Shown: piece after piece, positions 3-45,562 of the stretch
Layout: the number at the start of each line of letters is the position of its first letter
Numbering within the stretch: the stretch's first letter is position 1
From: Globisporangium splendens
Taxonomy: Eukaryota > Oomycota > Peronosporomycetes > Pythiales > Pythiaceae
Assembly (NCBI GenBank): GCA_006386115.1
Contig: VFIW01000026.1
Coordinates: 1-64,000 of the forward strand
DNA: 64,000 bases
Reading direction: 5' to 3'
Notes under the pieces: model-generated
What the model was told of the DNA's origin: nothing
Seen by the model: only the letters and a program-made list of their open reading frames with translations
The model's database searches: none
Program-made: the position numbers and the translations under genes

Positions 3-536
3 TGTAACGGGGTTACACTGTAATATGGTTACACACTTGTGTTGTGCCACACAACCAAACCGAACCTTGCGGTACGTAGAGTACGCGCAACAAGTTTAAG
101 ACCGAACCATGAGGTTCGTCGTACTTGCTCGAACCTTCACGGTGGAGCCGGCAGCCAGTCTGAGTGACGGCGCCTCCGATTGGATATAATTGAACACGCA
201 TTTCATCCAATCACATAAGACAACTAACGTTAGTCTTTCGTAGCCACTCATTGCCCCATGGGGAGTAATTACACTTGAGATTGCTATTGTTCATAGTTAC
301 ATAAAGATAACTCAGGGTGTCCTGCAGAGGGCAACCTCCGACAAATAAATAGTTCCATTTTTACCGTTAACTAAGTCTTTGGTTATCGACGGTTACTCTA
401 TAGAGATCTATAGGTAACCAATCGTTGCACTGCAGGAAGCAGGCAACCGCTCTCGGAACAGAGTCCTTGAGAGAAGCGTTGAATACGCTTCCTCACACAC
501 GTACCGTGCTGCGTAACTCGGAAGTGTCCGGTTACA
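3..536 (+). repeat. G1 5' LTR
   Basis: This 534-bp LTR has TG...CA ends and matches 7996-8529 along its whole length with scattered substitutions. It should contain the promoter (U3) and R regions. I see no strong canonical TATA box, only an A/T-rich GGATATAATTG stretch near 185. Confidence 0.95.
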
Positions 537-553: not shown

Positions 554-608
554 TCAATCTACGACCCGGCAGAGGTGACTGCCTGAATCGCTTCCTCAAG
601 GATTCATC

Positions 609-1769
609 ATGGCGTCAATTGACCCTGCGCAGTTCCCGCACCTCTCGGCTGAGCACCGGAGTGTGCTGACCCGAATGGCACAAGCTCTAGGCGACCAAGT
701 CGCTCTAGACGTGCTCTCGGCGTCGCCGGAACAGCAAATCTTTCGACTCGAGCAGTTCGAGAACTTCTCGAACGCTCAGCGCCTCGAAGGAGAGCGAAGT
801 GCGCAAGCACAAATGCAAGCCACCGCAAGCTTGACCGCAGAGATGCTGCGCTCAGCTGCTGAGTCGCGCGAAGCGCTCGAGCGAGTGGTATCTGTGGTTG
901 CTGGTGCAGCCACGTCTTTGTCGAGTGCGGCTTCTGCGCCTCAGACACCCGCGTCCCAAACTCCCCGCCCAAGAGCTGTCAAGATCGACGCTCCGAAATT
1001 CGATGGTGCGGATGGCGACAAGCTCATCCACTGGCTACTCGCCGTGGAGCGTTGCGCCAAGGCTCAGCTCATCGACAGCAACGAGCAGATGGTGTCTTAC
1101 GCCATCTCGAACCTGCGCGGTCGAGCGTCGGAATGGGCATTCTCGACGCTGCTCGCCGATGAGTGTGCATTCGACACGTGGGATATTTTCCGTGCGAGAA
1201 TCACCGCCATGTATCAGCCTCCGAACAACGAAGTGCTGTTGCAAGGTCGTTTCTTCTCCTTGAAACAAGGGAAGCTCTCACTGGAACGATACATCCAGGA
1301 GATGAGAAGCCTGTGCGCGGCGATCACGACCAGCCCTTTGCCTGAGTCTGTGAAAGTGCCTGCGTTTCTCAACGGCCTCAACAGTGGACCAGCGCGTCAG
1401 GAGTTGTACCGACGCTTGCCGGCCACGATGGAAGATGCGATCCGCATTGCGCTCGTTGAGCAGCAATCGTTCAGAGTCAGCCGACCTGATTGGAACGCTG
1501 GCCGCCACAACGGTGCGCATCACAGCCACCGAGCAGTCACAAATGAGCGGCGCTTCCATGGTCCGACACCAATGGATCTCAGCAGCGCCGAAGTGACCTG
1601 CTTTAACTGTGGCAAGCGAGGACACTATCAGTCGAAGTGTCCCGCTCCAAGGCAGCCCGCTCCTCGCACTGGAAATCAGGCGAGGGACTACCAAACGCCG
1701 CGCGGCAACCACGCTCACCGAGGTGGCAGATCCGCTGTGGCAAGAAAGGGAAACGGAATGTCTCAGTAG
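609..1769 (+). CDS. gag: G1 Gag polyprotein
   Basis: This 386-residue Gag forms the virus-like particle and binds the genomic RNA. The ATG at 609 is the first long open start after the primer-binding site. Residues 1-120 are helical and Ala/Ser-rich, followed by a Pro-rich linker (TPASQTPRPR). A conserved gypsy Gag core (FDGADGDKLIHWLLAVE to LNSGPARQELYRRLP) spans about residues 125-270. A CCHC zinc knuckle (CFNCGKRGHYQSKC) lies near residue 331. The stop codon TAG at 1767-1769 sits inside the stem of the frameshift signal. The pol frame overlaps the gag end, so Pol is made as a Gag-Pol fusion. Gag of G2 differs at only about seven residues. Confidence 0.93.
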   Translation: MASIDPAQFPHLSAEHRSVLTRMAQALGDQVALDVLSASPEQQIFRLEQFENFSNAQRLEGERSAQAQMQATASLTAEMLRSAAESREALERVVSVVAGAATSLSSAASAPQTPASQTPRPRAVKIDAPKFDGADGDKLIHWLLAVERCAKAQLIDSNEQMVSYAISNLRGRASEWAFSTLLADECAFDTWDIFRARITAMYQPPNNEVLLQGRFFSLKQGKLSLERYIQEMRSLCAAITTSPLPESVKVPAFLNGLNSGPARQELYRRLPATMEDAIRIALVEQQSFRVSRPDWNAGRHNGAHHSHRAVTNERRFHGPTPMDLSSAEVTCFNCGKRGHYQSKCPAPRQPAPRTGNQARDYQTPRGNHAHRGGRSAVARKGNGMSQ

Positions 1770-1792
1770 AAGCGGGACGCTCTACTGAGACA
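1748..1792 (+). promoter_or_regulatory. G1 -1 programmed ribosomal frameshift signal
   Basis: The slippery heptamer G GGA AAC (1748-1754) lies in the gag reading frame (codons AAG GGA AAC). After a 4-base spacer comes a perfect 12-bp stem, 1759-1770 with 1781-1792, closed by a 10-base loop. The gag stop lies in the stem. A -1 slip at 1754 enters the pol frame directly. This is the textbook X XXY YYZ arrangement, and it is identical in G2 at 39505-39549. Confidence 0.85.
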
Positions 1793-4700
1793 GACTCTAT
1801 AGCTTCGGCGTCGCCGACTACTAGAGTCGTGCAGATGGGAAGCTTAGTCCCAGGAGCTCTTGGCAACAAGGCTCCGAGTGAGATGTTGGTATATAGCGCC
1901 GATGTGAAGGGCTATGAGAAGAAAATGACGGTTCTTGTTGACTGCGGTGCGTCACAGAACTTCGTCTCGAAGGGAGCTCTGGAACAGAGTCTGCAAGCGT
2001 ATGAGCGACTTGTCCACAGTGGCAAGCGCGAGAAGATGATCGTACGTCTGGCCGATGGGTCGACAGTACACACTGAAGGGGTTCAAGTCGAACTCTCTTT
2101 CAGTTTTTGCGACTTTGTCTGCAAAGAAACGTTCGTGGTACTAGCGATGGGGTCGAGGTACGACCTCATCCTAGGGATGCCTTGGCTGGCGAAACATCAG
2201 CCTTGGATCGATTGGCGAGCACGCACAATCGGAAGCTCCACCCCTTCCTCTGATGAAGAGCGAAGGTTGCGGGAAAATTTCCACGCAATGGATGCGAGCT
2301 TTGAACACGCTGTGGCAGGGAGCCCAGCAGGAAGACATGCGGCGGCAGCGAGCCCCGCTCAAAACACTCACGCTGTGGCAGGGAGCCCAGCTAGAAGATG
2401 CGCTGAGGCAGGGAGCCCAGCAAAGAGATCAACTGCGGCAGGTAGCCCAGTTTGTGCGGAAGCGCCAGAAAGTCCAGACGTGGACACTGGTGCGCAAGTG
2501 TGCGGCTCCAGAGCACCCGAGCCAGCCCCCGCAAGTGACAGCGACAGTACAGGTGTACACGCGTCAGCCAGCTCGTACCACCCTGACGGTGCAGTACTGG
2601 AGCTCAGAACCGCGAGGTCGCGTGTTCGCATCAACCGACGAGGGCGACGCAAGTTGTCAGCTTGCGAGAGAGACAGTGCATTGGCATCTGTTGCTGAGGA
2701 AACGGCCGCCTCGCATATGATTGCCCCATCTCTCAATGCAGCTGCAACTTCGCTGCGCGCCTTCGACAGGACCTCGGATCCGTCGATAGATCGCGCTCAC
2801 GTTGACGTGGCGCTCAGACGCGCGAAGCGCAGTCCGGAAGCAAACGCATCAGACGAAGTGTTCTTCGCTGAATTTGCGGCGCTCCATGAGCTGCCGAGTA
2901 CCGCTGAGGCGATTGTATCCCTCGAAGAAATGAGCTATGAGCTCTTTCTTACGGATCTAGAGCGTGATCAGATCCGCGAGATCGTCGTTCCGACTGCGTT
3001 CACGCGTAGCGAACTATGCACCTCGTCCACTGCGGATGAGAGTGTTTTGGAGCCAGACAAACAGAAACGGTTTGCTGCTCAGGATTGGGACGCCGTGAAA
3101 GGCAGTCCATACTTTGACTTATTGTGGGAGTTCAAAGATGTGTTTCCCGACAAAGTGCCAAGTGCCCTGCCCGTTGATCGTGGCGTACGGCACGAGATTG
3201 ACCTCGAGCCCGGGAGCAAATATTGCGTGACCAGACAATGGCCGCTGCCCCGCGAGCAGGTTGAGGCAATCGACGAGTTCTTCGCGAAACGAGCCCTCGC
3301 CGGTCATGTGAGAGAAAGCAAGTCTCCACATAGCTCACCCACGTTTTGTGTGCGGAAAGCGACTGGTGGCTGGCGCATTGTTCACGCTTTCAACAAGCTG
3401 AACGCCGCCACCATTCCGGCACAAACGCCGATCCCAAGGAAGGATGTCTTGATCGACTCCATGGGCGGCTCGACAGTGTTCTCCGCACTGGATCTGATGG
3501 ATGGGTTCTATCAGATCCTCATGCGAGAGAGTGACGTTCCCTTGACGGCAGTAAGCACACCCAGCGGGATGCTGTGGGAGTGGCTCGTTATGCCACAAGG
3601 TTTGAAGAATGCACCAGCGACGTTCAATCGTCTGGTAACGCATCTTCTGCGTCCTCATCGTGCGTATGCACCGAGCTATTTCGATGACATCTTCGTGCAC
3701 AGTCGTGCCGAAGGAGGTCTCAGTGCCGTTGACGTGCACAAGAGACATTTGCGCTCAGTGTTGCAGTGCTTACGAGACAACAGTCTGTATTGCAACCTGA
3801 AGAAATGCATCTTTGGCGCCTCAGAGATACCGATCCTGGGCTGCTATGTTGGCAAAGCTGGAGTCCGCGCGGACCCAGAGAAGATCAAGGCGATCGCCGA
3901 CTGGCCGATCCCAAAGAATGTCAAGGACTTGCGCAAGTGGCTTGGCTTGGCAAATTACTTGCACAAGTACAGCCACAACTATGCGGCAAGAGTCCGTCCA
4001 CTCACGCATCTCTTGAAAAAGGATGTTGAGTGGGACTGGACGAATGATGTCATGAATGCATTCATTGACGTGAAGGAGTCGCTAGTTCGCGCTCCTGTCC
4101 TGGCGTTGCCGGACCACACGAAAGCCTTCAGTGTCGTGTGCGATGCCAGCGATTTTGCAATCGGCTGTGCGCTGATGCAGAAGGATGATGACGGCCATGA
4201 GCGCGTCGTATCATACCAAAGCAGACTGCTTAAGGCAGCTGAAAAGAATTATCCTGTGCACGACAAGGAGCTGCTTGCGATCAAGTACGCTCTCTTGAAG
4301 TTCAGGGTCCACCTTTTGGGTGCGACACCGTTCGTTGTGTACACGGATCACGCGTCCTTGCGGACCGCGATTAATTCCCCCCATTTATCGCAGCGAATGG
4401 CGCGATGGCTTGCTTTCTTCTCCGAGTTCAACTTTCGGGTCGAATACAAACCGGGAAAGGAAAATGTTCTGGCGGACGCGCTCTCGCGCCGTCCAGATTA
4501 CGAGTCGAGCGTTGACGACAGCTCTGACGCCCTGTGTTTGGAGCGCACTCCTGATCTCATGCATCTGAGCATCAGTCGAGTGCAAACAAAGCTCAAGGAC
4601 AACATTCAGTCGCTTTATGCAAAGGACGATGAATGTCGCTTGTTGATTGCTCACTTTGACGGCTCGTCCAAAGAGTCATTGCCTGCCAAACTCGAGTCAA

Positions 4701-7030
4701 AGCTTGCTCGGTTTAGTTACCACGACGGGTTGTTGTGGCATCGACTGTCCAACTTTGATTACCCGCGTGTGTATGTACCGCATGACCAGGATCTGAAACT
4801 TTCGATCCTGCATGAGTTTCACGATGCACCAGCGAGTGGGCATCTCGGGCGTGAAAAGACCTTCTTGCAAGTGTCTAATGTGTTTTGGTGGCCACACCAA
4901 TACAAATGGGTGGCCAATTATGTACGCTCATGCGAGCAGTGCCAGCGCGTGAAGCCTGCGGGCAAGAACAAAGCGCCGCTGCATCCGCTGCCGATTCCGC
5001 AAGACTGCTGGAAGTCGGTCAGCATGGATTTCGTCTTCGGTTTCCCGGAAGACAAGACGCGCAACACAGGCGTCGTCGTGTTCGTCGATCGACTGAGCAA
5101 AATGGTGCACGTTGCACCCGTGCGCAAGCATGTCACTGCGCAAGAGACGGCGTGCCTATTTTTAGAGCACGTGTTCCGCTATCACGGCTTGCCCGAGTCT
5201 ATTGTATCAGACCGGGACCCGCGTTTTACCGCTGCCTTTTGGCGCGAACTCTTTCGCCTGCTCGGCACAGATCTGGCGTTGTCCACTGCCGATCACCCCG
5301 AGACAGACGGGCAAACCGAGCGCGTGAACCGTGTCGTCGAGGATATTCTTCGCAGCATCGCTGTCGATCATCCCCGCGACTGGAGCCGCTGGCTGCCGTA
5401 CGCCGAGTTTGCTATAAATAGCAGCGAGCACGCCTCTACGGCCGTGACTCCGTTCTATTTTAACTCGCTGCGGCACCCGCGCGTACCCGCCACTCTGTTC
5501 GAGGGCGTCGAACGTTCTGCGGTGGGAGGGCAACTCGCTGCGCTCGATGCGAGCGCGCGATCTCCGTCACCGGACGTGGCGTCGACCGCTCACGTGGACG
5601 CGCGCGATGCGCCGCCTGTGCGATCGCGTTCCGAATCTGTCACGGTCTTACCGGACAGCACGCAGAGTATTGACATCTCGGGCACGGTACTGAGTTACGG
5701 TACTCGTGTCCCTAAAGATGGATCACCCACGGTACTGAGTTACGGCACTCGTGTCCCTAAAGATGGATCACCCACGGTACCGAGTTACGGTACTCGTGCT
5801 AAAAATAGCCAGTCTCAGACGGAATCAGGCGACTGCTCGTGTGAGCATCAGCCACGAATGGAAGGACGCGCGGTGTCACACACCGGCGCAGAAATAGATC
5901 TCTCTGCAGCACGCGCTGTGAGAGCAACGAAAAAGCAAGACAAAGCCGTCGCGGCAGCGCGGCAATTTGTCGATGAGCGTGCAGCATTGTTGCGTCGCGT
6001 ACGCGACCAACTAGCTGCTGCGCAAGACAAGCAAAAGCTCTACGCCGATAAATCGGGTAGAAAGAACAAACAAACGTTTTGTGTGGGTGATAAAGTGCTT
6101 TTAAGCATTAAAAACCTACCAAACGATGCAGTCACAACGCTCCCCAGCGGGAGTAAGTTGTTGCCACGATTCATCGGGCCATACACTGTTGTGGAGAAGA
6201 TTGGAGACTTGAATTACAAGCTCGATCTCCCAACGAGAATGGCAACGCACCCCGTGTTCTACGTGGGTTTGCTGAAGCGCTACCATGACGCTACTGTGGA
6301 TTCTTATCCCAGTCCGGGAGAACGTCGGTCTCATCAGGGGGCTCAGACGCCGCCCATCGAGACACGAGCGCGTTGTGCCTCTCCCAAAGCGTCTTCACTC
6401 GCGGAGCGTACCTCGCGTGGAAGTGCTTCCCGCGGACATGGTACTCCTCCAGCATCTGACGAGCTTCCTTCAGCTCCGTCTCAAGCGCTGTCACCCTCTG
6501 CTTCAACAGCGAGGTTTCGTCCAGATATTGCTGGCGAAGGGTACGGACGGCTTGCTGTAGCGCCCCCAAAGACGATGCGTTCGCGTGAACCATCTGAACC
6601 ACCGCATCTGGTGCAACCACCGATGCTGAAGCGAAGTAGGGCGCCACCTGTCCCGCTGATTGACAAGCAGGGACAGCGCCACTACCATGTTGAGCGCCTG
6701 CTGCGTGTGCAGCGGCGTAAGGGGAACACCCACTACCTTGTGAAGTGGCGTGGGTACGATGTGTCGCAGAGCTCGTGGGAGCCTGCTGAGCGCCTCCTCG
6801 AGGACGTTCCCGATTTGGTCGCCGCTTTTGAGCGTGCGTTGGTGGCGAGTGGGACTCGTCCATCTGCCGCTTGTAACGACGTGACTCGAACGAGCACGGT
6901 CAACAGTCTTGATCGCTTCGCGGTACTTTTGTACGCGCTGCACAGCGAATTGCATGCGCTGGCTACGTTGTGCCCCAGGATCGGTGGCCAATATACGCGC
7001 AGTGCCAAAGCGTTTCACACCGGTTCTTGA
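1754..7030 (+). CDS. pol: G1 Pol polyprotein (PR-RT-RH-IN-chromodomain)
   Basis: Pol is read in the frame entered by the -1 slip. Domains in order: aspartic protease with VDCGAS near 1936; a Ser/Pro/Ala-rich linker with short repeats (2310-2460); reverse transcriptase with ALDLMDGFYQ (about 3485), PQGLKNAPATF and the catalytic SYFDDIF (about 3675); RNase H (VVCDASDFAIG about 4135, TDHASLR about 4340); integrase zinc finger (HEFHDAPASGHLGREK to CEQCQR, 4811-4945) and the catalytic D-D-E set (SMDFVF, SDRDPRF, GQTERVNR; 5020-5320); GPY/F module (RFIGPYTV, about 6170); a disordered linker; and a C-terminal chromodomain (LVKWRGYD, 6684-6830) that probably targets integration to marked histones. 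G2 Pol stops shortly after the chromodomain. G1 reads on for about 60 codons because its downstream module is different. The linker and chromodomain overlap the antisense gene. Confidence 0.93.
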   Translation, partial: RNVSVEAGRSTETDSIASASPTTRVVQMGSLVPGALGNKAPSEMLVYSADVKGYEKKMTVLVDCGASQNFVSKGALEQSLQAYERLVHSGKREKMIVRLADGSTVHTEGVQVELSFSFCDFVCKETFVVLAMGSRYDLILGMPWLAKHQPWIDWRARTIGSSTPSSDEERRLRENFHAMDASFEHAVAGSPAGRHAAAASPAQNTHAVAGSPARRCAEAGSPAKRSTAAGSPVCAEAPESPDVDTGAQVCGSRAPEPAPASDSDSTGVHASASSYHPDGAVLELRTARSRVRINRRGRRKLSACERDSALASVAEETAASHMIAPSLNAAATSLRAFDRTSDPSIDRAHVDVALRRAKRSPEANASDEVFFAEFAALHELPSTAEAIVSLEEMSYELFLTDLERDQIREIVVPTAFTRSELCTSSTADESVLEPDKQKRFAAQDWDAVKGSPYFDLLWEFKDVFPDKVPSALPVDRGVRHEIDLEPGSKYCVTRQWPLPREQVEAIDEFFAKRALAGHVRESKSPHSSPTFCVRKATGGWRIVHAFNKLNAATIPAQTPIPRKDVLIDSMGGSTVFSALDLMDGFYQILMRESDVPLTAVSTPSGMLWEWLVMPQGLKNAPATFNRLVTHLLRPHRAYAPSYFDDIFVHSRAEGGLSAVDVHKRHLRSVLQCLRDNSLYCNLKKCIFGASEIPILGCYVGKAGVRADPEKIKAIADWPIPKNVKDLRKWLGLANYLHKYSHNYAARVRPLTHLLKKDVEWDWTNDVMNAFIDVKESLVRAPVLALPDHTKAFSVVCDASDFAIGCALMQKDDDGHERVVSYQSRLLKAAEKNYPVHDKELLAIKYALLKFRVHLLGATPFVVYTDHASLRTAINSPHLSQRMARWLAFFSEFNFRVEYKPGKENVLADALSRRPDYESSVDDSSDALCLERTPDLMHLSISRVQTKLKDNIQSLYAKDDECRLLIAHFDGSSKESLPAKLESKLARFSYHDGLLWHRLSNFDYPRVYVPHDQDLKLSILHEFHDAPASGHLGREKTFLQVSNVFWWPHQYKWVANYVRSCEQCQRVKPAGKNKAPLHPLPIPQDCWKSVSMDFVFGFPEDKTRNTGVVVFVDRLSKMVHVAPVRKHVTAQETACLFLEHVFRYHGLPESIVSDRDPRFTAAFWRELFRLLGTDLALSTADHPETDGQTERVNRVVEDILRSIAVDHPRDWSRWLPYAEFAINSSEHASTAVTPFYFNSLRHPRVPATLFEGVERSAVGGQLAALDASARSPSPDVASTAHVDARDAPPVRSRSESVTVLPDSTQSIDISGTVLSYGTRVPKDGSPTVLSYGTRVPKDGSPTVPSYGTRAKNSQSQTESGDCSCEHQPRMEGRAVSHTGAEIDLSAARAVRATKKQDKAVAAARQFVDERAALLRRVRDQLAAAQDKQKLYADKSGRKNKQTFCVGDKVLLSIKNLPNDAVTTLPSGSKLLPRFIGPYTVVEKIGDLNYKLDLPTRMATHPVFYVGLLKRYHDATVDSYPSPGERRSHQGAQTPPIETRARCASPKASSLAERTSRGSASRGHGTPPASDELPSAPSQALSPSASTARFRPDIAGEGYGRLAVAPPKTMRSREPSEPPHLVQPPMLKRSRAPPVPLIDKQGQRHYHVERLLRVQRRKGNTHYLVKWRGYDVSQSSWEPAERLLEDVPDLVAAFERALVASGTRPSAACNDVTRTSTVNSLDRFAVLLYALHSELHALATLCPRIGGQYTRSAKAFHTGS

Positions 7031-7825
7031 TGCCAAGAACGCGGTTTCATATTGATCCTCGGTCTCACCTTCGTAAAGGATAACCGGGATCGGGTGCACG
7101 CGCAGTGCCCCATCACGTCCTCGCAGATCGGCTTCGCGCCATCGTGCGAACTCGGAGTCATACCTCTCGAGTGGAACCCGCGCCTGTGCAAGTAAATTTG
7201 CCGGGGTTTTTGCTGTCGGCCATTCACTTGGCGACGGCATAATGGGAAGCGAATAATGGACGGAACCTTTTCGCGGTGGTTCCAGTCCGGTCTCATTATT
7301 GGTAATGATGACCTCCTCCTTCCCTCTTTCTTTGACAGTCTTTGCGACGTCATTTTCTTCATCCGTCCGATAAATCGAGACGTCTGCCGAGGGATTCCGT
7401 TCCAACTCGTGCAGTTCGGGGCTACCGCTCCCGTAATGCAACTCCTCGTACTCGACCCACTCGCCGATGGAGCCGAGCTTCACTGTGATGTCTTCCCCTT
7501 CCTCCCCTTCTTCGGGCGAGTACTCTTGGTAGTCGACTGCCGTGTCTTCTTCGGCGTCGCTTGTCCTGCTCATCGGCATGATGGCAGGGAGGTCGCCAAA
7601 TTGTAGCTCACTGACACAGTCAGGAGCAGCCTTCGGTTGAGTCGACTCGACGTCGCTCATGCTCACGTCTACTGTGGCAGTCGTGGTCGCAGCGGCAGCG
7701 CGTTGTTTTGCGCTCGCCGTCTCGCGCTTTTCAGCGTCGAGCTTTTGCAATCTTTGAACGAGTCCTTCTGCAGGGCCGCTCGCGCATCGGGCGATCTTCT
7801 CGCGCACCGATTTGTTTGTCGCCAT
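6291..7825 (-). pseudogene. G1 antisense ORF (aORF), one frameshift
   Basis: A long reading frame runs antisense to the pol 3' end and the pol-LTR interval. The proposed start is ATG at 7825 (MATNKSVREKIAR), because G2 starts the same way (MATNKAVREKLAR). Visible blocks are an acidic Glu/Asp-rich stretch, VSIYRTDEEND, a conserved core (VHPIPVILYEGETEDQY, QRSQRMQFAV) and, in another frame after a shift near 6865, a heptad-rich coiled coil (LRQQYLDETSLLKQRVTALE) ending at 6291. The C-terminal third overlaps the Pol linker and chromodomain on the other strand. I recognise no family. Products of antisense ORFs in some plant retrotransposons are a precedent, but no homology is claimed. Expression is unknown. 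Confidence 0.6.
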
Positions 7826-7982
7826 CACGTGTGCGTCCACACTTGTGATTTTACGACGATTCTCGGAGAGCTTTGCACGCGTGTTCGCTGTGCCTCTCAC
7901 GATAAATTCTGACCACGACTTCGTGAGTCGTAGCGTGACCACCACACTTTCTCACACCGACCCTTCGAGTGTTTCGCACTTT

Positions 7983-7995: not shown

Positions 7996-8529
7996 TGTAA
8001 CGGGGTTACACTGTAACATGGTTACGCACTTGTGTTGTGCCACACAACCAAACCGAACCTTGCGGTACGTAGAGTACGCGCAACAAGTTTAAGACCGAAC
8101 CATGAGGTTCGTCGTACTTGCTCGAACCTTCACGGTGGAGCCGGCAGCCAGTCTGAGTGACGGCGCCTCCGATTGGATATAATTGAACATGCATTTCATC
8201 CAATCACATAAGACAACTAGCGTTAGTCTTTCATAGCCACTCATTGCCCCATGGGGAGTAATTACACTTGAGATTGCTATTGTTCATAGTTACATAAAGA
8301 TAATCCAGGTTGTCCTACAGAGGGCAACCTCCAACAAATAAACAGTTCCATTTTTACCGTTAACTGAGTCTTTGGTTATCGACGGTTACTCTATAGAGAC
8401 CTACAGGTAACCGATTGTTGCACTGCAGGAAGCAGGCAACCGCTCTCGGAACAGAGTCCTTGAGAGAAGCGTTGAATACGCTTCCTCACACACGTACCGT
8501 GCTGCGTAACTCGGAAGTGTCCGGTTACA
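7996..8529 (+). repeat. G1 3' LTR
   Basis: This 534-bp copy of the LTR is followed by TCAGA, the likely target-site duplication. It is at least as similar to the G2 LTRs as to its own 5' partner. Confidence 0.95.
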
Positions 8530-9211: not shown

Positions 9212-9227
9212 ACTGAGCCACACAGGC
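9212..9227 (-). other. Partial tRNA-Thr (5' part only) at LINE 3' junction
   Basis: ACTGAGCCACACAGGC is the complement of the first 16 bases of the tRNA-Thr gene (acceptor and D-arm start). The rest of the tRNA is missing and is replaced by LINE-like sequence ending at 9211. The normal array flank (gcaactcagctagcg) follows. This is what the 3' side of a LINE insertion into a tRNA-Thr gene would leave. Confidence 0.7.
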
Positions 9228-9626
9228 GCAACTCAGCTAGCGCCAATCACACTTTTCAACCACTACCCTCGCACACACATCACACACAACCACCTGCATT
9301 CCACACCAACAACACACAACACACACTCCACACACACAAACACAAGTGTCCTCCCGCCCGCCCGCACAACACACACACACACACACACACACACGAGATC
9401 ACACATGAGTTTTCCATACTCGGTCATACTCGCCACAACACGCATCGATGCATCCATCGCCTTGCCTGTCCGCCAGCTCATTCGTTTGTTCGTTCGTCCG
9501 TCCGTTCGTTCGCTCCGAGTCGATCGGCTGGGTCAAACTGTCGAATAGACTACTCGATGCCAAGTGTGCGAGAGTGCAGTCCAGGCGTTTGGCGTTTGGC
9601 GTTTGGCGTTTGGCGAAGAAAAGATT

Positions 9627-10090: not shown

Positions 10091-10162
10091 TGCCTCCGCC
10101 CGGGATTGAACCGGGGACCTTCTGTTTACAAGACAGATGCTCTACCACTGAGCCACACAGGC
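10091..10162 (-). tRNA. tRNA-Thr(UGU), array copy 2
   Basis: Identical in sequence to copy 1, 464 bp further on, with the same 3' TTTT terminator. Confidence 0.9.
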
Positions 10163-12202: not shown

Positions 12203-12233
<31 letters not shown>

Positions 12234-12674: not shown

Positions 12675-12708
<34 letters not shown>

Positions 12709-22611: not shown

Positions 22612-22613
22612 AG

Positions 22614-28823: not shown

Positions 28824-29359
28824 TGTAAGAGGGTGCTGTTCACAACAGTCCCTCAAACACGGCACACACGCTTGTGCCAGAGGAAGCGATCTCCCGACTT
28901 GGAGGGAGGAAGAAGACTTGAGTACTTGGAGGAAAATTTGCAACTGAATTGAAAAGGTTATGGTTCCTGTCGCTACTTGCTAATGAACCCCAAGGGATCC
29001 TACAACTTTCACAACTAAAACCTAACATACACAATAAAACCTATAAATCTGATATATAAAACCTTGGGTACACTGAGGTTGAACCTACGGGATCTTCTAG
29101 AAGCTTGAACTTCAAGTCTTATTTAAAATCCCTGCAAAGTGATTGGCTTGCGCCACTCACTTCAGGCGGCAGAGACACGTCGGTCTCGTCGCCAGCCCAG
29201 TTTCCCAAGCAGGAACCATCACTCAGTACTTGATTAGTACATGGATGTCATCACTCTGTACTGATTAGTACATGAGAACAACATTCTGCACTGATCAGCA
29301 CAGAGAACACTCGTGAGGTCATCGAATGACGTCACACGTGCATGTGGGGACTGTATTAC
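28824..29359 (-). repeat. G3 3' LTR
   Basis: Begins TGTAAGAGGG on +, equal to a TTACA end on -. The other terminus is GTAATACAG rather than the expected TG start. It contains the repeats cactctgtactgattagtacatg. Confidence 0.88.
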
Positions 29360-30271
29360 CGTCGCGATGATCCGAACCAACACATCGCAGCCCAGAGAGA
29401 CTCATGGCGAACATTTGTTCGTCTTGAGAATGAGAACAAGATGGAGCGTCTTCTTCGTCGTGACAATGCTCGTGCCGAAAGAAGAACTCCCGCTGACGAC
29501 AGAGCGAATCCTAGCTCTGGTCGTCGTAGTGTCGCCCCTGGCGACGCTACAAGCAGTTCTCATAGCTGCGAACCACGTCGGGAACATCAGACTCCAATGT
29601 CTGACGAGGCTCCCACGTGTCCGAGCTCGGTGGATACCCACGCCACCGAACTCTGTAGAAGCGTTGATGGTTCAACTGCTTCTTTCCTCGACGATGAGTC
29701 GGTCGATCTTCATGATCAACAATCGACTCAACCATCCAGCGATGCTCTCCCTGAGAGTCTAACAACGGGGGTGGGGCTGAACGAGAAAACGATTGAGCGA
29801 CTCTGGAAGTGGAAGAGTGCTCATCGTGGGCAAATCGAGGCTTTGCAGCAGCGTTGTTCGACGCTTGAGGAACGCTGCGAGAGTCTCGAGAACCTTGTCG
29901 CCGATCATGAGTCGAAGATCGACGATCTGACAGAAGGTTCTGCCCAGTGTTCGGCTTTGGAGTCCCGTTTCGAGGAACGGTTCCAACAGGTTCAGGACGA
30001 ACTTGTTCGACTCCGGAAGAACGAGAAGTCTCGTGAGTTGGCTCACGATCGCCTGTTGCGCTCTGTGGAAGAGGCAGGTTCGGCTCTCGAGGTACTTCGT
30101 GGCGAGTACCATTCTCGTCTTCAAGCGTTGGAGGCAGTGAAGGACCAATCCTTCGACGTCCTGCAACTCTTGTACGCCGAGAAGAATCTCCAGAGCGATG
30201 AGCTGTTTGCTCTTCGCAATCAAGTGGAGAAGCTTCACGATCAGCTCGATCGTTTGCGGAAGATCTCGTAG
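29342..30271 (+). CDS. G3 antisense ORF: coiled-coil protein
   Basis: 309 residues, opposite to the Pol linker and chromodomain of G3. The ATG at 29342 lies in the last bases of the LTR; an alternative start is MERLLRRDN at 29441. Residues 1-140 are Arg/Ser-rich and disordered. From about 150 to the end the protein is a long heptad-rich coiled coil (RGQIEALQQRCSTLEERCESL). The stop TAG (30269-30271) falls just past the conserved HPTFYVGRLKPYL of the integrase on the other strand, the same place where the G1/G2 antisense ORFs end. Function unknown. It stays open although the sense genes are broken in several places. Confidence 0.55.
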   Translation: MWGLYYRRDDPNQHIAAQRDSWRTFVRLENENKMERLLRRDNARAERRTPADDRANPSSGRRSVAPGDATSSSHSCEPRREHQTPMSDEAPTCPSSVDTHATELCRSVDGSTASFLDDESVDLHDQQSTQPSSDALPESLTTGVGLNEKTIERLWKWKSAHRGQIEALQQRCSTLEERCESLENLVADHESKIDDLTEGSAQCSALESRFEERFQQVQDELVRLRKNEKSRELAHDRLLRSVEEAGSALEVLRGEYHSRLQALEAVKDQSFDVLQLLYAEKNLQSDELFALRNQVEKLHDQLDRLRKIS

Positions 30272-30614
30272 GATCCGCAGATCCACTTGGAAGGTAAGGC
30301 TTCAGTCTACCCACATAAAATGTCGGGTGTAGACGCATGCGTGTAGGTATGTCTAGCGTGTAGGCATCACCATTGCATTTCGCTACCTTGAACGGTCCGA
30401 TGAACCTTGGCAGAAGCTTTGAGCTTCCCAAGTTGGACACTGCATGTTCAGGCAGGTTCGCCGTGCTAAGTAATACAAGATCATTGATCTTATAAACTTG
30501 CTTGTTTTTCCTTCCGCTCTTGTCTGCTTGTTCCTTTTGCAGATCCTGAGCCTTCGCGATTGCGTCTCGAACAAACCTCACAACGGCTTGTCTCCTCACA
30601 ACAAAGTCATCGAC
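29547..30614 (-). pseudogene. pol: G3 Pol C-terminus: GPY/F module, linker, chromodomain
   Basis: Continues the integrase frame after TAA at 30615-30617. It has ADKSGRKNKQVYKINDLVLL, RFIGPFKVAKCNGDAYTLDI and HPTFYVGRLKPYL, then about 170 disordered residues rich in Arg, Ser and Pro (antisense to the coiled-coil ORF), and a chromodomain (FYRVRWRGYPPSSDTWEP) ending YENCL at 29550. Confidence 0.85.
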
Positions 30615-38365: not shown

Positions 38366-39526
38366 ATGGCGTCAGTTGACCCTGCGCAGTTCCCGCACCT
38401 CTCGGCTGAACACCGGAGTGTGCTGACCCGAATGGCACAAGCTCTAGGCGACCAAGTCGCGCTAGACGTGCTCTCGGCGTCGCCGGAACAGCAAATCTTT
38501 CGACTCGAGCAGTTCGAGAACTTCTCGAACGCTCAGCGCCTCGAAGGAGAGCGAAATGCGCAAGCACAAATGCAAGCCACCGCAAGCTTGACCGCAGAGA
38601 TGCTGCGCTCAGCTGCTGAGTCGCGCGAAGCGCTCGAGCGAGTGGTATCTGTGGTTGCTGGTGCAGCCACGTCTTTGTCGAGTGCGGCTTCTGCGCCTCA
38701 GACACCCGCGTCCCAAACTCCCCGCCCGAGAGCTGTCAAGATCGACGCTCCGAAATTCGATGGTGCGGATGGCGACAAGCTCATCCACTGGCTACTCGCC
38801 GTGGAGCGTTGCGCCAAGGCTCAGCTCATCGACAGCAACGAGCAGATGGTGTCTTACGCCATCTCGAACCTGCGCGGTCGAGCGTCGGAATGGGCATTCT
38901 CGACGTTGCTCGCCGATGAGTGTGCATTCGACACGTGGGATATTTTCCGTGCGAAAATCACCGCCACGTATCAGCCTCCGAACAACGAAGTGCTGTTGCA
39001 AGGTCGTTTCTTCTCCTTGAGACAAGGGAAGCTCTCACTGGAACGATACATCCAGGAGATGAGAAGCCTGTGCGCGGCGATCACGACCAGCCCTTTGCCT
39101 GAGTCTGTGAAAGTGCCTGCGTTTCTCAACGGCCTCAACAGTGGACCAGCGCGTCAGGAGTTGTACCGACGCTTGCCGGCCACGATGGAAGATGCGATCC
39201 GCATTGCGCTCGTTGAGCAGCAATCGTTCAGAGTCAGCCGACCTGATTGGAACGCTGGCCGCCACAACGGTGCGCATCACAGCCACCGAGCAGTCACAAA
39301 TGAGCGGCGCTTCCATGGTCCGACACCAATGGATCTCAGCAGCGCCGAAGTGACCTGCTTTAACTGTGGCAAGCGAGGACACTATCAGTCGAAGTGTCCC
39401 GCTCCAAGGCAGTCTACTCCTCGCACTGGAAATCAGGCGAGGGACTACCAAACGCCGCGCGGCAACCACGCTCACCGAGGTGGCAGATCCGCTGCGGCAA
39501 GAAAGGGAAACGGAATGTCTCAGTAG
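38366..39526 (+). CDS. gag: G2 Gag polyprotein
   Basis: 386 residues, about seven substitutions from G1 Gag, with the same CCHC knuckle (CFNCGKRGHYQSKC). The start lies 73 bases after the LTR, as in G1. The TAG stop lies inside the frameshift stem-loop. Confidence 0.93.
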   Translation: MASVDPAQFPHLSAEHRSVLTRMAQALGDQVALDVLSASPEQQIFRLEQFENFSNAQRLEGERNAQAQMQATASLTAEMLRSAAESREALERVVSVVAGAATSLSSAASAPQTPASQTPRPRAVKIDAPKFDGADGDKLIHWLLAVERCAKAQLIDSNEQMVSYAISNLRGRASEWAFSTLLADECAFDTWDIFRAKITATYQPPNNEVLLQGRFFSLRQGKLSLERYIQEMRSLCAAITTSPLPESVKVPAFLNGLNSGPARQELYRRLPATMEDAIRIALVEQQSFRVSRPDWNAGRHNGAHHSHRAVTNERRFHGPTPMDLSSAEVTCFNCGKRGHYQSKCPAPRQSTPRTGNQARDYQTPRGNHAHRGGRSAAARKGNGMSQ

Positions 39527-39549
39527 AAGCGGGACGCTCTACTGAGACA
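39505..39549 (+). promoter_or_regulatory. G2 -1 programmed ribosomal frameshift signal
   Basis: GGGAAAC at 39505-39511, then the 12-bp stem 39516-39527/39538-39549, base for base as in G1. Confidence 0.85.
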
Positions 39550-42500
39550 GACTCTATAGCTTCGGCGTCGCCGACTACTAGAGTCGTGCAGATGGGAAGC
39601 TTAGTCCCAGGAGTTCTTGACAACAAGGCTCCGAGTGAGATGTTGGTATATAGCGCCGATGTGAAGGGCTATGAGAAGAAAATGACGGTTCTTGTTGACT
39701 GCGGTGCGTCACAGAACTTCGTCTCGAAGGCAGCTCTGGAACAGAGTCTGCAAGCATATGAGCGACTTGTCCACAGTGGCAAGCGCGAGAAGATGATCGT
39801 ACGTCTGGCCGATGGGTCGATAGTACACACTGAAGGGGTTCAAGTCGAACTCTCTTTCAGTTTTTGCGACTTTGTCTGCAAAGAAACGTTCGTGGTACTA
39901 GCGATGGGGTCGAAGTACGACCTCATCCTAGGGATGCCTTGGCTGGCGAAACATCAGCCTTGGATCGATTGGCGAGCACGCACAATCGGAAGCTCCACCC
40001 CTTCCTCTGATGAAGAGCGAAGGTTGCGGGAAAATTTTCACGCAATGGATGCGAGCTTTGAACACGCTGTGGCAGGGAGCCCAGCAGGAAGACATGCGGC
40101 GGCAGCGAGCCCCGCTTCAAACACTCACGCTGTGGCAGGGAGCCCAGCTAGAAGATGCGCTGAGGCAGGTAGCCCAGTTTGTGCGGAAGCGCCAGAAAGT
40201 CCAGACGTGGACACTGGTGCGCAAGTGTGCGGCTCCAGAGCACCCGAGCCAGCCCCCGCAAGTGACAGCGACAGTACAGGTGTACACGCGTCAACCAGCT
40301 CGTACCACCCTGACGGTGCAGTACTGGAGCTCAGAACCGCGAGGTCGCGCGTTCGCATCAACCGACGAGGGCGACGCAAGTTGTCAGCTCGCGAGAGAGA
40401 CAGTGCATTGGCATCTGCTGCTGAGAAAACGGTCGCCTCGCATATGATTGCCCCATCTCTCAATGCAGCTGCAACTTCGCTGCGCGCCTTCGGCAGGATC
40501 TCGGATCCGTCGATAGATCGCGCTCACGTTGACGTGGCGCTCAGACGCGCGACACGCAGTCCGGAAGCAAACGCATCAGACGAAGTGTTCTTCGCTGAAT
40601 TTGCGGCGCTCCATGAGCTGCCGAGTACCGCTGAGGCGATTGTATCCCTCGAAGAAATGAGCTATGAGCTCTTTCTTACGGATCTAGAGCGTGATCAGAT
40701 CCGCGAGATCGTCGTTCCGACTGCGTTCACGCGTAGCGAACTATGCACCTCGTCCACTGCGGATGAGAGTGTTTTGGAGCCAGACAAACAGAAACGGTTT
40801 GCTGCTCAGGATTGGGACACCGTGAAAGGCAGTCCATACTTTGACTTATTGTGGGAGTTCAAAGATGTCTTCCCCGACAAAGTGCCAAGTGCCCTGCCCG
40901 TTGATCGTGGCATACGGCACGAGATTGACCTCGAGCCCGGGAGCAAATATTGCGTGACCAGACAATGGCCGCTGCCCCGCGAGCAGGTTGAGGCAATCGA
41001 CGAGTTCTTCGCGAAACGAGCCCTCGCCGGTCATGTGAGAGAAAGCAAGTCTCCACATAGCTCACCCACGTTTTGTGTGCGGAAAGCGACTGGTGGCTGG
41101 CGCATTGTTCACGCTTTCAACAAGCTGAACGCCGCCACCATTCCGGCACAAACGCCGATCCCAAGAAAGGATGTCTTGATCGACTCCATGGGCGGCTCGA
41201 CAGTGTTCTCCGCACTGGATCTGATGGATGGGTTCTATCAGATCCTCATGCGAGAGAGTGACGTTCCCTTGACGGCAGTAAGCACACCCAGCGGGATGCT
41301 GTGGGAGTGGCTCGTTATGCCGCAAGGTTTGAAGAATGCACCAGCGACGTTCAATCGTCTGGTAACGCATCTTCTGCGTCCTCATCGTGCGTATGCACCG
41401 AGCTATTTCGATGACATCTTCGTGCACAGTCGTGCCGAAGAAGGTCTCAGTGCCGTTGACGTGCACAAGAGACATTTGCGCTCAGTGTTGCAGTGCTTAC
41501 GAGACAACAGTCTGTATTGCAACCTGAAGAAATGCATCTTTGGCGCCTCAGAGATACCGATCCTGGGCTGCTATGTTGGCAAAGCTGGCGTCCGCGCGGA
41601 CCCAGAGAAGATCAAGGCGATCGCCGACTGGCCGATCCCAAAGAATGTCAAGGACTTGCGCAAGTGGCTTGGCTTGGCAAATTACTTGCACAAGTACAGC
41701 CACAACTATGCGGCAAGAGTCCGTCCGCTCACGCATCTCTTGAAAAAGGATGTCGAGTGGGACTGGACGAATGATGTCATGAATGCATTCATTGACGTGA
41801 AGGAGTCGCTCGTTCGCGCTCCTGTCCTGGCGTTGCCGGACCACACGAAAGCCTTCAGTGTCGTGTGCGATGCCAGCGATTTTGCAATCGGCTGTGCGCT
41901 GATGCAGAAGGATGATGACGGCCATGAGCGCGTCGTATCATACCAAAGCAGACTGCTTAAGGCAGCTGAAAAGAATTATCCTGTGCACGACAAGGAGCTG
42001 CTTGCGATCAAGTACGCCCTCTTGAAGTTCAGGGTCCACCTTTTGGGTGCGACACCGTTCGTTGTGTACACGGATCACGCGTCCTTGCGGACCGCGATTA
42101 ATTCCCCCCATTTATCGCAGCGAATGGCGCGATGGCTTGCATTCTTCTCCGAGTTCAACTTTCGGGTCGAATACAAGCCGGGAAAGGAAAATGTTCTGGC
42201 GGACGCGCTCTCGCGCCGTCCAGATTACGAGTCGAGCGCTGACAGCAGCTCTGACGCCCTGTGTTTGGAGCGCACTCCTGATCTCATGCATCTGAGCATC
42301 AGTCGAGTGCAAACAAAGCTCAAGGACAATATTCAGTCGCTTTATGCAAAGGACGATGAATGTCGCTTGTTGATTGCTCACTTTGACGGCTCGTCCAAAG
42401 AGTCATTGCCTGCCAAACTCGAGTCAAAGCTTGCTCGGTTTAGTTACCACGACGGGTTGTTGTGGCATCGACTGTCCAACTTTGATTACCCGCGTGTGTA

Positions 42501-44592
42501 TGTACCGCATGACCAGGATCTGAAACTTTCGATCCTGCATGAGTTTCATGATGCACCAGCGAGTGGGCATCTCGGGCGTGAAAAGACCTTCTTGCAAGTG
42601 TCTAATGTGTTTTGGTGGCCACACCAATACAAATGGGTGGCCAATTATGTACGCTCATGCGAGCAGTGCCAGCGCGTGAAGCCTGCGGGCAAGAACAAAG
42701 CGCCGCTGCATCCGCTGCCGATTCCGCAAGACTGCTGGAAGTCGGTCAGCATGGATTTCGTCTTCGGTTTCCCGGAAGACAAGACGCGCAACACAGGCGT
42801 CGTCGTGTTCGTCGACCGACTGAGCAAAATGGTGCACGTTGCACCCGTGCGCAAGCATGTCACTGCGCAAGAGACGGCGTGCCTATTTTTAGAGCACGTG
42901 TTCCGCTATCACGGCTTGCCCGAGTCTATTGTATCAGACCGGGACCCGCGTTTTACCGCTGCCTTTTGGCGCGAACTCTTTCGCCTGCTCGGCACAGATC
43001 TGGCATTGTCCTCTGCCGATCACCCCGAGACAGACGGGCAAACCGAGCGCGTGAACCGTGTCGTCGAGGATATTCTTCGCAGCATCGCTGTCGATCATCC
43101 CCGCGACTGGAGCCGCTGGCTGCCGTACGCCGAGTTTGCTATAAATAGCAGCGAGCACGCCTCTACGGCCGTGACTCCGTTCTATTTTAACTCGCTGCGG
43201 CACCCGCGCGTACCCGCCACTCTGTTCGAGGGCGTCGAACGTTCTGCGGTGGGAGGGCAACTCACTGCGCTCGATACGAGCACGCGATCTCCGTCACCGG
43301 ACGTGGCGTCGACCGCTCACGTGGACGCGCGCGATGCGCCGCCTGTGCGATCGCGTTCCGAATCTGTCACGGTCTTACCGGACAGCACGCAGAGTATTGA
43401 CATATCGGGCACGGTACTGAGTTACGGTACACGTGTCCCTAAAGATGGATCACCCACGGTACTGAGCTACGGTACTCGTGTCCCTATAGATGGCTCTCAC
43501 ACGGTACCGAGTTACGGTACTCGTGCTAAAAATAGCCAGTCTCAGACGGAATCAGGCGACTGCTCGTGTGAGCGTCAGCCACGAATGGAAGGACGCGCGG
43601 TGTCACACACCGGCGCAGAAATAGATCTCTCTGCAGCACGCGCTGCGAGAGCAACGACAAAGCAAGACAAAGCCGTCGCGGCAGCGCGGCAATTTGTCGA
43701 TGAGCGCGCAGCATTGTTGCGTCGCGTACGCGACCAACTAGCTGCTGCGCAAGACAAGCAAAAGCTCTACGCCGATAAATCGGGTAGAAAGAACAAACAA
43801 ACGTTTTGTGTGGGTGATAAAGTGCTTTTGAGCATTAAAAACCTACCAAACGATGCAGTCACAACGCTCCCCAGCGGGAGTAAGTTGTTGCCACGATTCA
43901 TCGGGCCATACACTGTTGTGGAAAAGATTGGAGACTTGAATTACAAGCTCGATCTCCCAACGAGAATGGCAACGCACCCCGTGTTCTACGTGGGTTTGCT
44001 TAAGCGCTACCATGACGCTACTGTGGATTTTTATCCCAGTCCGGGAGCACGTCGGTCTCATCAGGGGGCTCAGACGCCGCCCATCGAGACACGAGCGCGT
44101 TGTGCCTCTCCCAAAGCGCCTTCACTCGCGGAGCGTACCTCGCGTGGAAGTGCTTCCCGCGGACGTGGTACTCCTCCAGCATCTGACGAGCTTCCTTCAG
44201 CTCCGTCTCAAGCGCTGCCACCCTCTGCTTCAACAGCGAGGTCTCGTCCAGATATTGCTGGCGAAGGGTACGGACGTCTTGCTGTAGCGCCCCCAAAGAC
44301 GATGCGTTCGCGTGAACCATCTGAACCACCGCATCTGGTGCAACCACCGATGCTGAAGCGAAGTAGGGCGCCACCTATCCCGCTGATTGACAAGCAGGGA
44401 CAGCGCCACTACCATGTTGAGCGCCTGCTGCGTGTGCAGCGGCGTAAGGGGAACACCCACTACCTTGTGAAGTGGCGTGGGTACGATGTGTCGCAGAGCT
44501 CGTGGGAGCCTGCTGAGCGTCTTCGCGAAGACGTCCCGGATCTTGTTGACGCCTTTGAGGCGCAACTGAGGGACTGTCATTCGCGCGAGTAA
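39511..44592 (+). CDS. pol: G2 Pol polyprotein (PR-RT-RH-IN-chromodomain)
   Basis: Open to the stop at 44590-44592. Protease VDCGAS, RT SYFDDIFVHS, RNase H VVCDASDFAIG, integrase HHCC (GHLGREK/CEQCQR) and the D-D-E motifs are all as in G1. The chromodomain LVKWRGYDVSQSSWEP is followed by VDAFEAQLRDCHSRE and stop, probably the original C-terminus. The protease-RT linker lacks one 10-residue AGSPAKRSTA-type repeat present in G1. Three YGTRVPKDGSP-type repeats lie between integrase and GPY/F (43415-43540). Confidence 0.93.
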   Translation, partial: RNVSVEAGRSTETDSIASASPTTRVVQMGSLVPGVLDNKAPSEMLVYSADVKGYEKKMTVLVDCGASQNFVSKAALEQSLQAYERLVHSGKREKMIVRLADGSIVHTEGVQVELSFSFCDFVCKETFVVLAMGSKYDLILGMPWLAKHQPWIDWRARTIGSSTPSSDEERRLRENFHAMDASFEHAVAGSPAGRHAAAASPASNTHAVAGSPARRCAEAGSPVCAEAPESPDVDTGAQVCGSRAPEPAPASDSDSTGVHASTSSYHPDGAVLELRTARSRVRINRRGRRKLSARERDSALASAAEKTVASHMIAPSLNAAATSLRAFGRISDPSIDRAHVDVALRRATRSPEANASDEVFFAEFAALHELPSTAEAIVSLEEMSYELFLTDLERDQIREIVVPTAFTRSELCTSSTADESVLEPDKQKRFAAQDWDTVKGSPYFDLLWEFKDVFPDKVPSALPVDRGIRHEIDLEPGSKYCVTRQWPLPREQVEAIDEFFAKRALAGHVRESKSPHSSPTFCVRKATGGWRIVHAFNKLNAATIPAQTPIPRKDVLIDSMGGSTVFSALDLMDGFYQILMRESDVPLTAVSTPSGMLWEWLVMPQGLKNAPATFNRLVTHLLRPHRAYAPSYFDDIFVHSRAEEGLSAVDVHKRHLRSVLQCLRDNSLYCNLKKCIFGASEIPILGCYVGKAGVRADPEKIKAIADWPIPKNVKDLRKWLGLANYLHKYSHNYAARVRPLTHLLKKDVEWDWTNDVMNAFIDVKESLVRAPVLALPDHTKAFSVVCDASDFAIGCALMQKDDDGHERVVSYQSRLLKAAEKNYPVHDKELLAIKYALLKFRVHLLGATPFVVYTDHASLRTAINSPHLSQRMARWLAFFSEFNFRVEYKPGKENVLADALSRRPDYESSADSSSDALCLERTPDLMHLSISRVQTKLKDNIQSLYAKDDECRLLIAHFDGSSKESLPAKLESKLARFSYHDGLLWHRLSNFDYPRVYVPHDQDLKLSILHEFHDAPASGHLGREKTFLQVSNVFWWPHQYKWVANYVRSCEQCQRVKPAGKNKAPLHPLPIPQDCWKSVSMDFVFGFPEDKTRNTGVVVFVDRLSKMVHVAPVRKHVTAQETACLFLEHVFRYHGLPESIVSDRDPRFTAAFWRELFRLLGTDLALSSADHPETDGQTERVNRVVEDILRSIAVDHPRDWSRWLPYAEFAINSSEHASTAVTPFYFNSLRHPRVPATLFEGVERSAVGGQLTALDTSTRSPSPDVASTAHVDARDAPPVRSRSESVTVLPDSTQSIDISGTVLSYGTRVPKDGSPTVLSYGTRVPIDGSHTVPSYGTRAKNSQSQTESGDCSCERQPRMEGRAVSHTGAEIDLSAARAARATTKQDKAVAAARQFVDERAALLRRVRDQLAAAQDKQKLYADKSGRKNKQTFCVGDKVLLSIKNLPNDAVTTLPSGSKLLPRFIGPYTVVEKIGDLNYKLDLPTRMATHPVFYVGLLKRYHDATVDFYPSPGARRSHQGAQTPPIETRARCASPKAPSLAERTSRGSASRGRGTPPASDELPSAPSQALPPSASTARSRPDIAGEGYGRLAVAPPKTMRSREPSEPPHLVQPPMLKRSRAPPIPLIDKQGQRHYHVERLLRVQRRKGNTHYLVKWRGYDVSQSSWEPAERLREDVPDLVDAFEAQLRDCHSRE

Positions 44593-45562
44593 TTTGTCGC
44601 CTGTTACCAGCGCGACCACCCGCTCGCAGAGGCGTGCCACCGCCCTGCTTGGAGCGAAACAGACGAACACGGTCAACTGCAAATTGCATGCGTTGACTGC
44701 GTTGCGCTGTCGGATCGGTAGACACTGTGCGAGTGCTACCTCCCTTAATTTTATTGATGCACGACATGAAGTCGGCATCGTACTCTTCTTCCGTCTCTCC
44801 AACAAAGAGGACGACTGGGATCGGGTGAATACGCAATTCCCCATTTTCATCCCGCAATCGCTTTTCGCGCCAATTTTTAAATTGAGCGTCATAGTCCCAC
44901 GCACAAAGTCTGGCTCTCGCGAGCAGATTCGATGCGGTCTTGCCAGCCGGCCATAGTTCTGGCGGCGGCATTTCGGGCAGTGAGTACTTGAGCTCATCGT
45001 GAACGATGGCTCGCACCCCTGCCTCTTCGTTTGTAATGAGGACTTCGTGCTTCCTCTTACGATTGTTGACAGCCTCAACGGCGTCATTTTCCTCCTTCGT
45101 CCGATACATCGAGACGTCAGCAGATGGATCTCGCTCGAGCTCGTGGAGATAAGCGGCGTGTCGCTCGCTTTGCAACTCCTCGTACTTGACCCACTCGTCG
45201 ATGGAGCCGAGCTTCATGGTGAGCGCTCCCTCGTCTTCAAGCGAGCTCCCGTCATTGTCAACGACGAGGAATTCCTCAGTCACTTCCTCCTCTTCCAAAG
45301 CACGCGCGAACAACGGCTTCACGGAAGGGAGGTCTCCGAATCGCAACTCACTGCTTATAGCAGGAGCGCTATCAGATGTGAGAGCAGACCTGCCGTCGCT
45401 CTCCGCAGGCACGTCGACCGCATCCGCGGTGACCGTCGTTCGTCTTGCGCTCGACGCGACCTCTCTGTCTTCCTCGCGCTTGCGCAGAGTTTCGACGAGA
45501 GTGCCGACGGCTTCCCCTTTTTGTCGCGCGAGCTTCTCGCGGACAGCTTTGTTGGTGGCCAT
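44018..45562 (-). pseudogene. G2 antisense ORF (aORF), one nonsense codon
   Basis: 514 codons in one frame from ATG 45562 (MATNKAVREKLARQ) to the stop at 44018, broken only by TAG at 44375-44377 (codon 396), where G1 has CAG. Conserved blocks with G1: LRFGDLPS, LGSIDEWVKYEEL, ADVSMYRTKEEND, YSLPEMPPPELWP, LRIHPIPVVLFVGETEEEY, AQRSQRMQFAVDRV, and the C-terminal coiled coil (LRQQYLDETSLLKQRVAALE). Much of the N-terminal 350 residues differs from G1, in contrast to about 98-99% identity of gag-pol. No known family recognised. Confidence 0.6.

Follow-up and report, generated by a model that had tools for sequence, protein, structure and literature searches.

A candidate antisense accessory gene sharing DNA with the chromodomain end of pol in chromoviruses of the oomycete Globisporangium splendens

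Accessory genes on the antisense strand of long terminal repeat (LTR) elements are already known (brtn, gene23, TRP28), and for those situated between pol and the 3' LTR the available text of two papers gives functions as unknown (PMC11963269, PMC7264820). In this study, we analyzed a 64,000-nucleotide stretch of the genome of the oomycete Globisporangium splendens (Oomycota, Pythiales; GenBank assembly GCA_006386115.1, contig VFIW01000026.1, positions 1 to 64,000; here called the window), in which two Ty3/Gypsy elements, here named G1 and G2, carry a long open reading frame (ORF) on the strand opposite to the end of pol. On sequence evidence, we consider it very likely that this frame is a true gene, encoding an accessory protein on the antisense strand of a group of oomycete chromoviruses.

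Several described systems resemble this arrangement. Boty (BcGypsy1) of Botrytis cinerea is presented in the available text of PMC4227169 and PMC8365987, with attribution to Zhao et al. 2011, as an element that has, besides gag-pol and a chromodomain, a further gene in antisense orientation, brtn; its host is a fungus whereas ours is an oomycete, and the likeness is one of description. Gene23 of Grande and the aORF-3R of RIRE2 are antisense ORFs between pol and the 3' LTR that are retained in most copies, with an own promoter reported for gene23; both belong to plant elements, and a reciprocal overlap with pol is not described in the accessible part of that source (PMC7264820). As in the definition of aORF-3R, the frame studied here is antisense to gag-pol, lies at the pol/3' LTR end and occurs in most copies. 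The TRP28 (PF04195) antisense ORFs, also between pol and the 3' LTR, are nearly universal in the Retand lineage according to the portion of PMC11963269 at hand, but Retand elements are non-chromovirus plant elements, and PF04195 was unmatched in our antisense proteins. Chronos, like G1, is an oomycete Ty3/Gypsy element with a chromodomain after the integrase, but is reported in the text available to us to carry a second, plant-like RNase H (PMC5348765), whereas, for RNase H, G1 Pol (P0005) matched only the two overlapping RT_RNaseH models at E values up to 1. The word "antisense" has 0 occurrences in the main text of the Chronos paper (PMC5348765). A search of open-access titles and abstract openings, with subscription literature outside its scope, did not find an oomycete antisense retroelement gene or a reciprocal overlap of this kind.

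The Pol frame of G1 (1607..7030, plus strand; protease, reverse transcriptase, RNase H, integrase and chromodomain) matches the Pfam models RVT_1, RT_RNaseH, Integrase_H2C2, rve, SH3_Tf2-1 (GPY/F) and Chromo in this order, with rve just under threshold (31.5 bits versus a cut-off of 32.6). The chromodomain occupies frame residues 1693 to 1743 (about 6683..6835, plus strand; E 3.8e-14) and follows the integrase, a domain order by which G1 classifies as a chromovirus-type Ty3/Gypsy element. Opposite to the end of this frame, the antisense gene of G1 (6291..7825, minus strand) begins MATNKSVREKIAR; we refer to its family as MATNK. An earlier note on this DNA had described a minus-strand frame of about 510 codons in both copies. 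The start, the conserved blocks and the C-terminal coil that it listed are present, but neither window copy is unbroken: the G1 frame, 1,535 nt long, carries a 1-nt deletion, with 440 codons readable before a stop and the final part frame-shifted, and that of G2 (44018..45562, minus strand) is readable for 395 codons and then meets an in-frame TAG. Intact copies of the G1 type (511 codons) and the G2 type (514 codons) exist elsewhere in the genome. In a set of 76 loci that includes both window copies, 44 have a whole frame (503 to 514 codons, identical terminal residues), two of them (L064 and L073) only when counted from an alternative in-frame start. An alignment test found neither stop nor frameshift in 23 of 46 G1-type and 19 of 30 G2-type loci, compared to 28 clean loci for the adjoining 900 nt of pol among the 57 with sufficient pol; by this count, the antisense gene is therefore preserved about as well as pol. 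For the N-terminal 308 residues of the protein the genome has at least 128 matches, for the C-terminal 109 at least 134, and the frame was traceable by DNA match in every scored copy (at least 40 G1-like, the best 40 of 135 candidates, and at least 40 G2-like, the best 40 of 133). A motif search 5' of the antisense start did not find a core promoter.

The pattern of substitutions indicates that the antisense frame is selected as a protein. The earlier note had suspected coding constraint and had proposed the ratio of nonsynonymous to synonymous substitution rates (dN/dS) outside the pol overlap as a check. Across alignment columns 1 to 278, taken as outside pol, dN/dS was 0.37 between the copies L002 and L046 (dS 0.14) and 0.39 between L002 and L010 (dS 1.27), and with three further subfamily pairs five of the six pairs examined fall at 0.37 to 0.39. 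About 265 antisense codons extend past pol in G1. Over the first 335 codons, the antisense frames of L002, L046 and L010 contain 0 stops and the five other frames 3 to 21, while simulated unconstrained drift produced on average 2.5 stops at 0.07 substitutions per site and 9.7 at 0.44, where none of 500 runs stayed stop-free. Five unnamed protein homologues at 36 to 47% identity retain, with small variations, the HPIPV and QRSQRMQFAV blocks, the coil and FHARYAPRVK; an N-terminal TNxxVR is present in four of them, P0036 having no start. Together with the codon-phase tests described below, these ratios and distant homologues bear out the coding constraint suspected earlier. Within subfamilies (69 loci: 14 G1a, 25 G1b and 30 G2, with L045 and later loci excluded), the observed/expected ratio of nonsynonymous to synonymous changes (N/S) in the N-terminal part outside the overlap was 0.79 for G1a, 0.57 for G1b and 0.62 for G2, and in the coil 0.92, 0.59 and 0.60, respectively.

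Within the overlap, antisense codon position 1 faces sense position 1 and antisense position 3 coincides with sense position 2, so that a change silent in one protein usually alters the other. Sequence comparison shows that the last third of the antisense gene shares DNA with pol through a division of labour. One copy compared is L077, a relic at G000:C175 whose antisense protein is 40% identical and has one in-frame TAA, and whose opposite strand still matches Pfam Chromo (E 8.6e-13). Between L077 and L002, identity in the coil stretch (83 codons) is 40% in the antisense and 16% in the sense reading, with 36, 32 and 58 differences at antisense positions 1, 2 and 3; in the chromodomain stretch (54 codons), it is 67% in the sense and 44% in the antisense reading, with 12, 23 and 12 differences (Fisher p 0.0028 for the contrast). 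The antisense hinge preceding the chromodomain stretch showed no constraint (nonsynonymous/synonymous ratio pN/pS 0.96 to 1.32), and within subfamilies N/S facing the chromodomain was 1.19 for G1a, 1.29 for G1b and 3.17 for G2. The sense strand had been regarded in the earlier note as non-coding or linker; this does not hold, as the chromodomain lies within the overlap and the sense strand is constrained there. The antisense coil faces the Arg/Ser/Pro-rich linker between SH3_Tf2-1 and the chromodomain (6287..6682, plus strand, in G1), which by these comparisons only needs to remain open: it is stop-free in both L077 and L002, and the two other sense-strand frames hold 1 and 8 stops there.

The same antisense arrangement is found, as judged from sequence, in at least three further chromovirus lineages of this genome. 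A third Gypsy element in the window (28.8 to 36 kb, minus strand), of a family here named X, has a Pol C-terminus at 29547..30614 (minus strand) with SH3_Tf2-1, a long linker and a chromodomain (E 1.2e-11), and opposite to it, in the same relative phase as in G1, an antisense frame at 29330..30271 (plus strand; 313 codons with a C-terminal coil) whose N-terminal part is missing or broken. Other lineages were reached by a genome chromodomain search, after which four loci were read. L078 and L080 (X) and L079 (Y) have long antisense frames facing the chromodomain, that of L079 interrupted by one stop, and none of the three proteins gave a tblastn match to MATNK; L081 is a broken G2-type copy. 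Two more loci, L082 (Z, 565 codons) and L083 (Y', 614 codons, pol broken), were located via the antisense protein and have a chromodomain opposite.

For X, comparison of the window copy with L078 gave an antisense dN/dS of 0.28 outside the overlap (67 codons, dS 2.06). In the coil stretch, dN/dS was 0.33 in the antisense and 1.86 in the sense reading (46, 33 and 70 differences at antisense positions 1, 2 and 3), and in the chromodomain stretch 0.26 in the sense and 1.48 in the antisense reading (7, 15 and 6 differences). The X sense linker has no stop over 172 codons. Sense-strand frame 1 reaches a dN/dS of 0.34 in the X coil stretch, yet it contains 16 stops and is therefore no rival. Pooling MATNK and X gave a Fisher p of 6.4e-6 for the phase contrast. 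In both families, the antisense stretch facing the chromodomain is thus itself little constrained.

The overlap phase is identical in all five families (MATNK, X, Y, Y' and Z), and in each the antisense frame stops where the integrase SH3/GPY-F domain ends or close to that point: in MATNK and X 5 to 23 nt past the SH3_Tf2-1 match, in Z 13 nt within it, and in Y and Y', by eye, similarly. Homology links the Y, Y' and Z proteins to one another (27 to 35% identity, E 5e-26 or better); X has at most one motif in common with them, and MATNK shows no convincing similarity to X, Y, Y' or Z proteins. A search with the Z chromodomain yielded 150 chromodomain loci, of which 117 were overlapped by an opposite-strand match to an antisense gene and 0 by a same-strand match, a count that used all 95 rows of one antisense search and 64 of 85 of the other.

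Comparison of G1 and G2 revealed a divergent cassette at 6793..7948, which comprises the 5' two thirds of the antisense gene, the DNA upstream of that gene and the tail of pol. Over these 1.15 kb, identity is 46 to 72% per 100-nt window, while each window elsewhere is at least 90% identical, the single exception containing a 30-nt gap; directly ahead of the cassette, 900 nt are 97 to 100% identical. The statement in the earlier note that the copies share residues although their DNA has diverged thus applies to the cassette and not to the remainder of the elements. The left border of the cassette lies within the end of the chromodomain and its right border just before the 3' LTR; on these alignments, near-identical backbones bear different 5' cassettes. 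L071 is a recombinant within the antisense gene, with a G1-like N terminus, a G2-like middle and a frame that is still open.

An AlphaFold2 model of the L002 protein (seven sequences, mean predicted local distance difference test [pLDDT] 62.2) predicts a central conserved domain at residues ~190 to 310 (6896..7258, minus strand, in G1), which holds HPIPV and QRSQRMQFAV and scores 79 to 91 in most 10-residue blocks and 68 to 70 in two. Residues 310 to 403, mostly facing the chromodomain, stay below 50 with one exception and are predicted to be disordered. Residues 406 to 491 (6354..6611, minus strand; the FHARYAPRVK region), facing the sense linker, form a single long helix with pLDDT mostly above 80. 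A hydrophobic periodicity of ~3.5 residues was detected in the coils of MATNK and X (permutation p 0.005 and 0.02), while that of Z (3.35) falls short of significance (p 0.08). The acidic N-terminal part of the MATNK protein has an isoelectric point (pI) of 4.3 to 4.7 and the basic hinge one of 11.2 to 11.9. Pfam searches of MATNK, X, Y' and Z proteins yielded no DNA-binding family above cut-off and no basic leucine zipper (bZIP) family, only generic coil. PF04195 was matched neither in MATNK at E up to 1 (two proteins) and 0.1 (seven members) nor in X, Y' and Z proteins at E 0.05. We also considered the predicted fold of the Pol C-terminus as evidence for linker disorder and set it aside: the chromodomain alone scored 70 to 86, but the integrase SH3 domain also reached only about 28 to 41, making this weak evidence on the linker. 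The "accessory or regulatory protein" proposed in the earlier note is plausible on anatomical grounds only.

Several points weigh against a genuine gene of this kind. The support so far is drawn from sequence, all DNA compared comes from one species, and dS is close to saturation in the deep comparisons. The sixth pair, L010 versus the recombinant L071, has a dN/dS of 0.69, and in G1 the last ~13 codons of the "non-overlapping" columns overlap the pol tail. Constraint is weaker inside subfamilies (N/S 0.57 to 0.79 outside the overlap and 0.59 to 0.92 in the coil), the coil-versus-chromodomain phase contrast is marginal for MATNK copies alone (p 0.067; 0.021 without singletons), and no family or fold match points to a function. 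Within 400 nt, 30 of the 150 chromodomain loci have no antisense match with the X and Y queries, and these include further chromodomain groups, with C64:26064 and C12:43192 of G000 as examples of such groups.

The open antisense frame could be a by-product of base composition and of constraint on pol, since part of it faces a conserved domain. In G1 a second antisense frame is likewise open through the chromodomain, so openness there proves little. Yet the ~265 G1 codons past pol, with dN/dS at 0.37 to 0.39 in five of six pairs, the 3 to 21 stops in the five other frames, and a coil stretch kept in the antisense reading while the sense reading is down to 16% identity, with homologues at 36 to 47%, speak against such an origin, which selection, stop counts and codon phase already contradict unless the alignments are wrong; we regard it as barely conceivable. 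Scarcely more credible is that the antisense RNA matters, through double-stranded RNA regulation of the element, and the protein is incidental. The accessible text of PMC7264820 proposes this as possible for plant elements, but selection here acts on codons, as differences in the coil stretch of MATNK and X are in excess at the third antisense position. Descent from a host gene that the element captured and now carries in antisense orientation also appears very unlikely. LTR elements are known to capture genes (PMC7264820, in the part available), whereas the matches listed here are element-family proteins, Gag-fused models, the reverse transcriptase of the element family itself (P0041) and unnamed homologues, and the overlap phase is common to divergent families; protein searches for host relatives need shared words, and a distant one could escape them. 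A much more substantial competitor, although we would not bet on it, is that the gene is real but encodes a structural protein, or one that works together with integrase or Gag, in particle assembly or the pre-integration complex, and not a nuclear transcription regulator. The long predicted coil, the end of the antisense frame at the border of the integrase SH3 domain and the lack of a DNA-binding family above cut-off in the searches fit this role, while the acidic/basic/coil layout on the opposite strand suits a regulator and the known analogue gene23 is reported to be nuclear in the text available (PMC7264820).

As for the role of the antisense gene as a regulator, we tentatively propose, at a little short of even chances, that its product is nuclear and dimerizes through the coil, and that it combines an acidic N terminus with a small conserved domain and a hinge that is basic and resembles a nuclear localization signal. 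This protein would be expressed from a promoter in antisense orientation close to the 3' LTR and would regulate transcription or integration of its own element. The antisense gene HBZ of human T-cell leukemia virus type 1 (HTLV-1), near the 3' LTR, likewise encodes an acidic N terminus, a basic middle and a C-terminal coil; the likeness to our proteins is in layout and antisense position only, as these lack a bZIP match and host and element are unrelated. The mode of action may resemble that of gene23 of Grande or of HBZ, without homology to either. On the evolution of the gene, we lean slightly towards a joint reading with three parts. The antisense gene would be ancestral, under selection and characteristic of a broad group among the oomycete chromoviruses; the linker between integrase and chromodomain would be the "shadow" that the antisense coil casts on the other strand, kept only free of stops; and a new antisense protein would come about when the 5' cassette, which is freer to change, is swapped while the overlapping 3' end stays fixed. 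Such swapping would explain why MATNK and X/Y/Z have place, phase and coil in common without a recognizable shared N terminus.

The remaining parts of G1 comprise the 5' LTR (3..536) and 3' LTR (7996..8529), with ends read by eye, and the Gag frame (579..1769; Retrotrans_gag, CCHC), all on the plus strand. G2 has its Pol frame at 39364..44592 (plus strand), with the chromodomain at its end, and its 3' LTR at about 45747-46280; in both elements, a Gag with a CCHC knuckle is followed by Pol with reverse transcriptase, RNase H, integrase and SH3_Tf2-1. Elsewhere in the window, 9200-14050 contains an array of ~ten direct copies of a 464- to 490-nt unit, 14700-28000 two related LINE-like elements 7.55 kb apart that bear reverse transcriptase (RVT_1; one with Exo_endo_phos), and 59998-62379 (minus strand) a frame for an FtsH-like M41 AAA protease, likely a host gene. 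At L077, a ribonucleotide reductase small-chain frame (3286-3915; Pfam 3.9e-34) lies ~1.1 kb from the MATNK relic. Among existing gene models, P0022 and P0031 (and P0042, per its listed domains) fuse the antisense gene to Gag domains, and P0012 fuses it, by eye, to an X-like antisense N terminus; these fusions are probably annotation artefacts. Antisense splicing across the LTR, as P0012 and P0022 would have it by joining LTR pieces to the frame, was not relied on because the two models disagree with each other and fuse neighbouring genes.

Many antisense copies are already in NCBI as unnamed hypothetical proteins and are therefore liable to be mistaken for host genes; among the matches listed, all NCBI-named ones are from Globisporangium splendens (FI667_g...). 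The locus provides a codon-level case, at deep divergence, of an antisense gene overlapping an essential enzyme gene, with constraint split by strand in several lineages of one genome, and is a clear natural example of a eukaryotic element whose genes overlap in antisense. It suggests a route to the origin of long disordered linkers, and the more than 250 loci may serve to study the function of antisense retroelement proteins.

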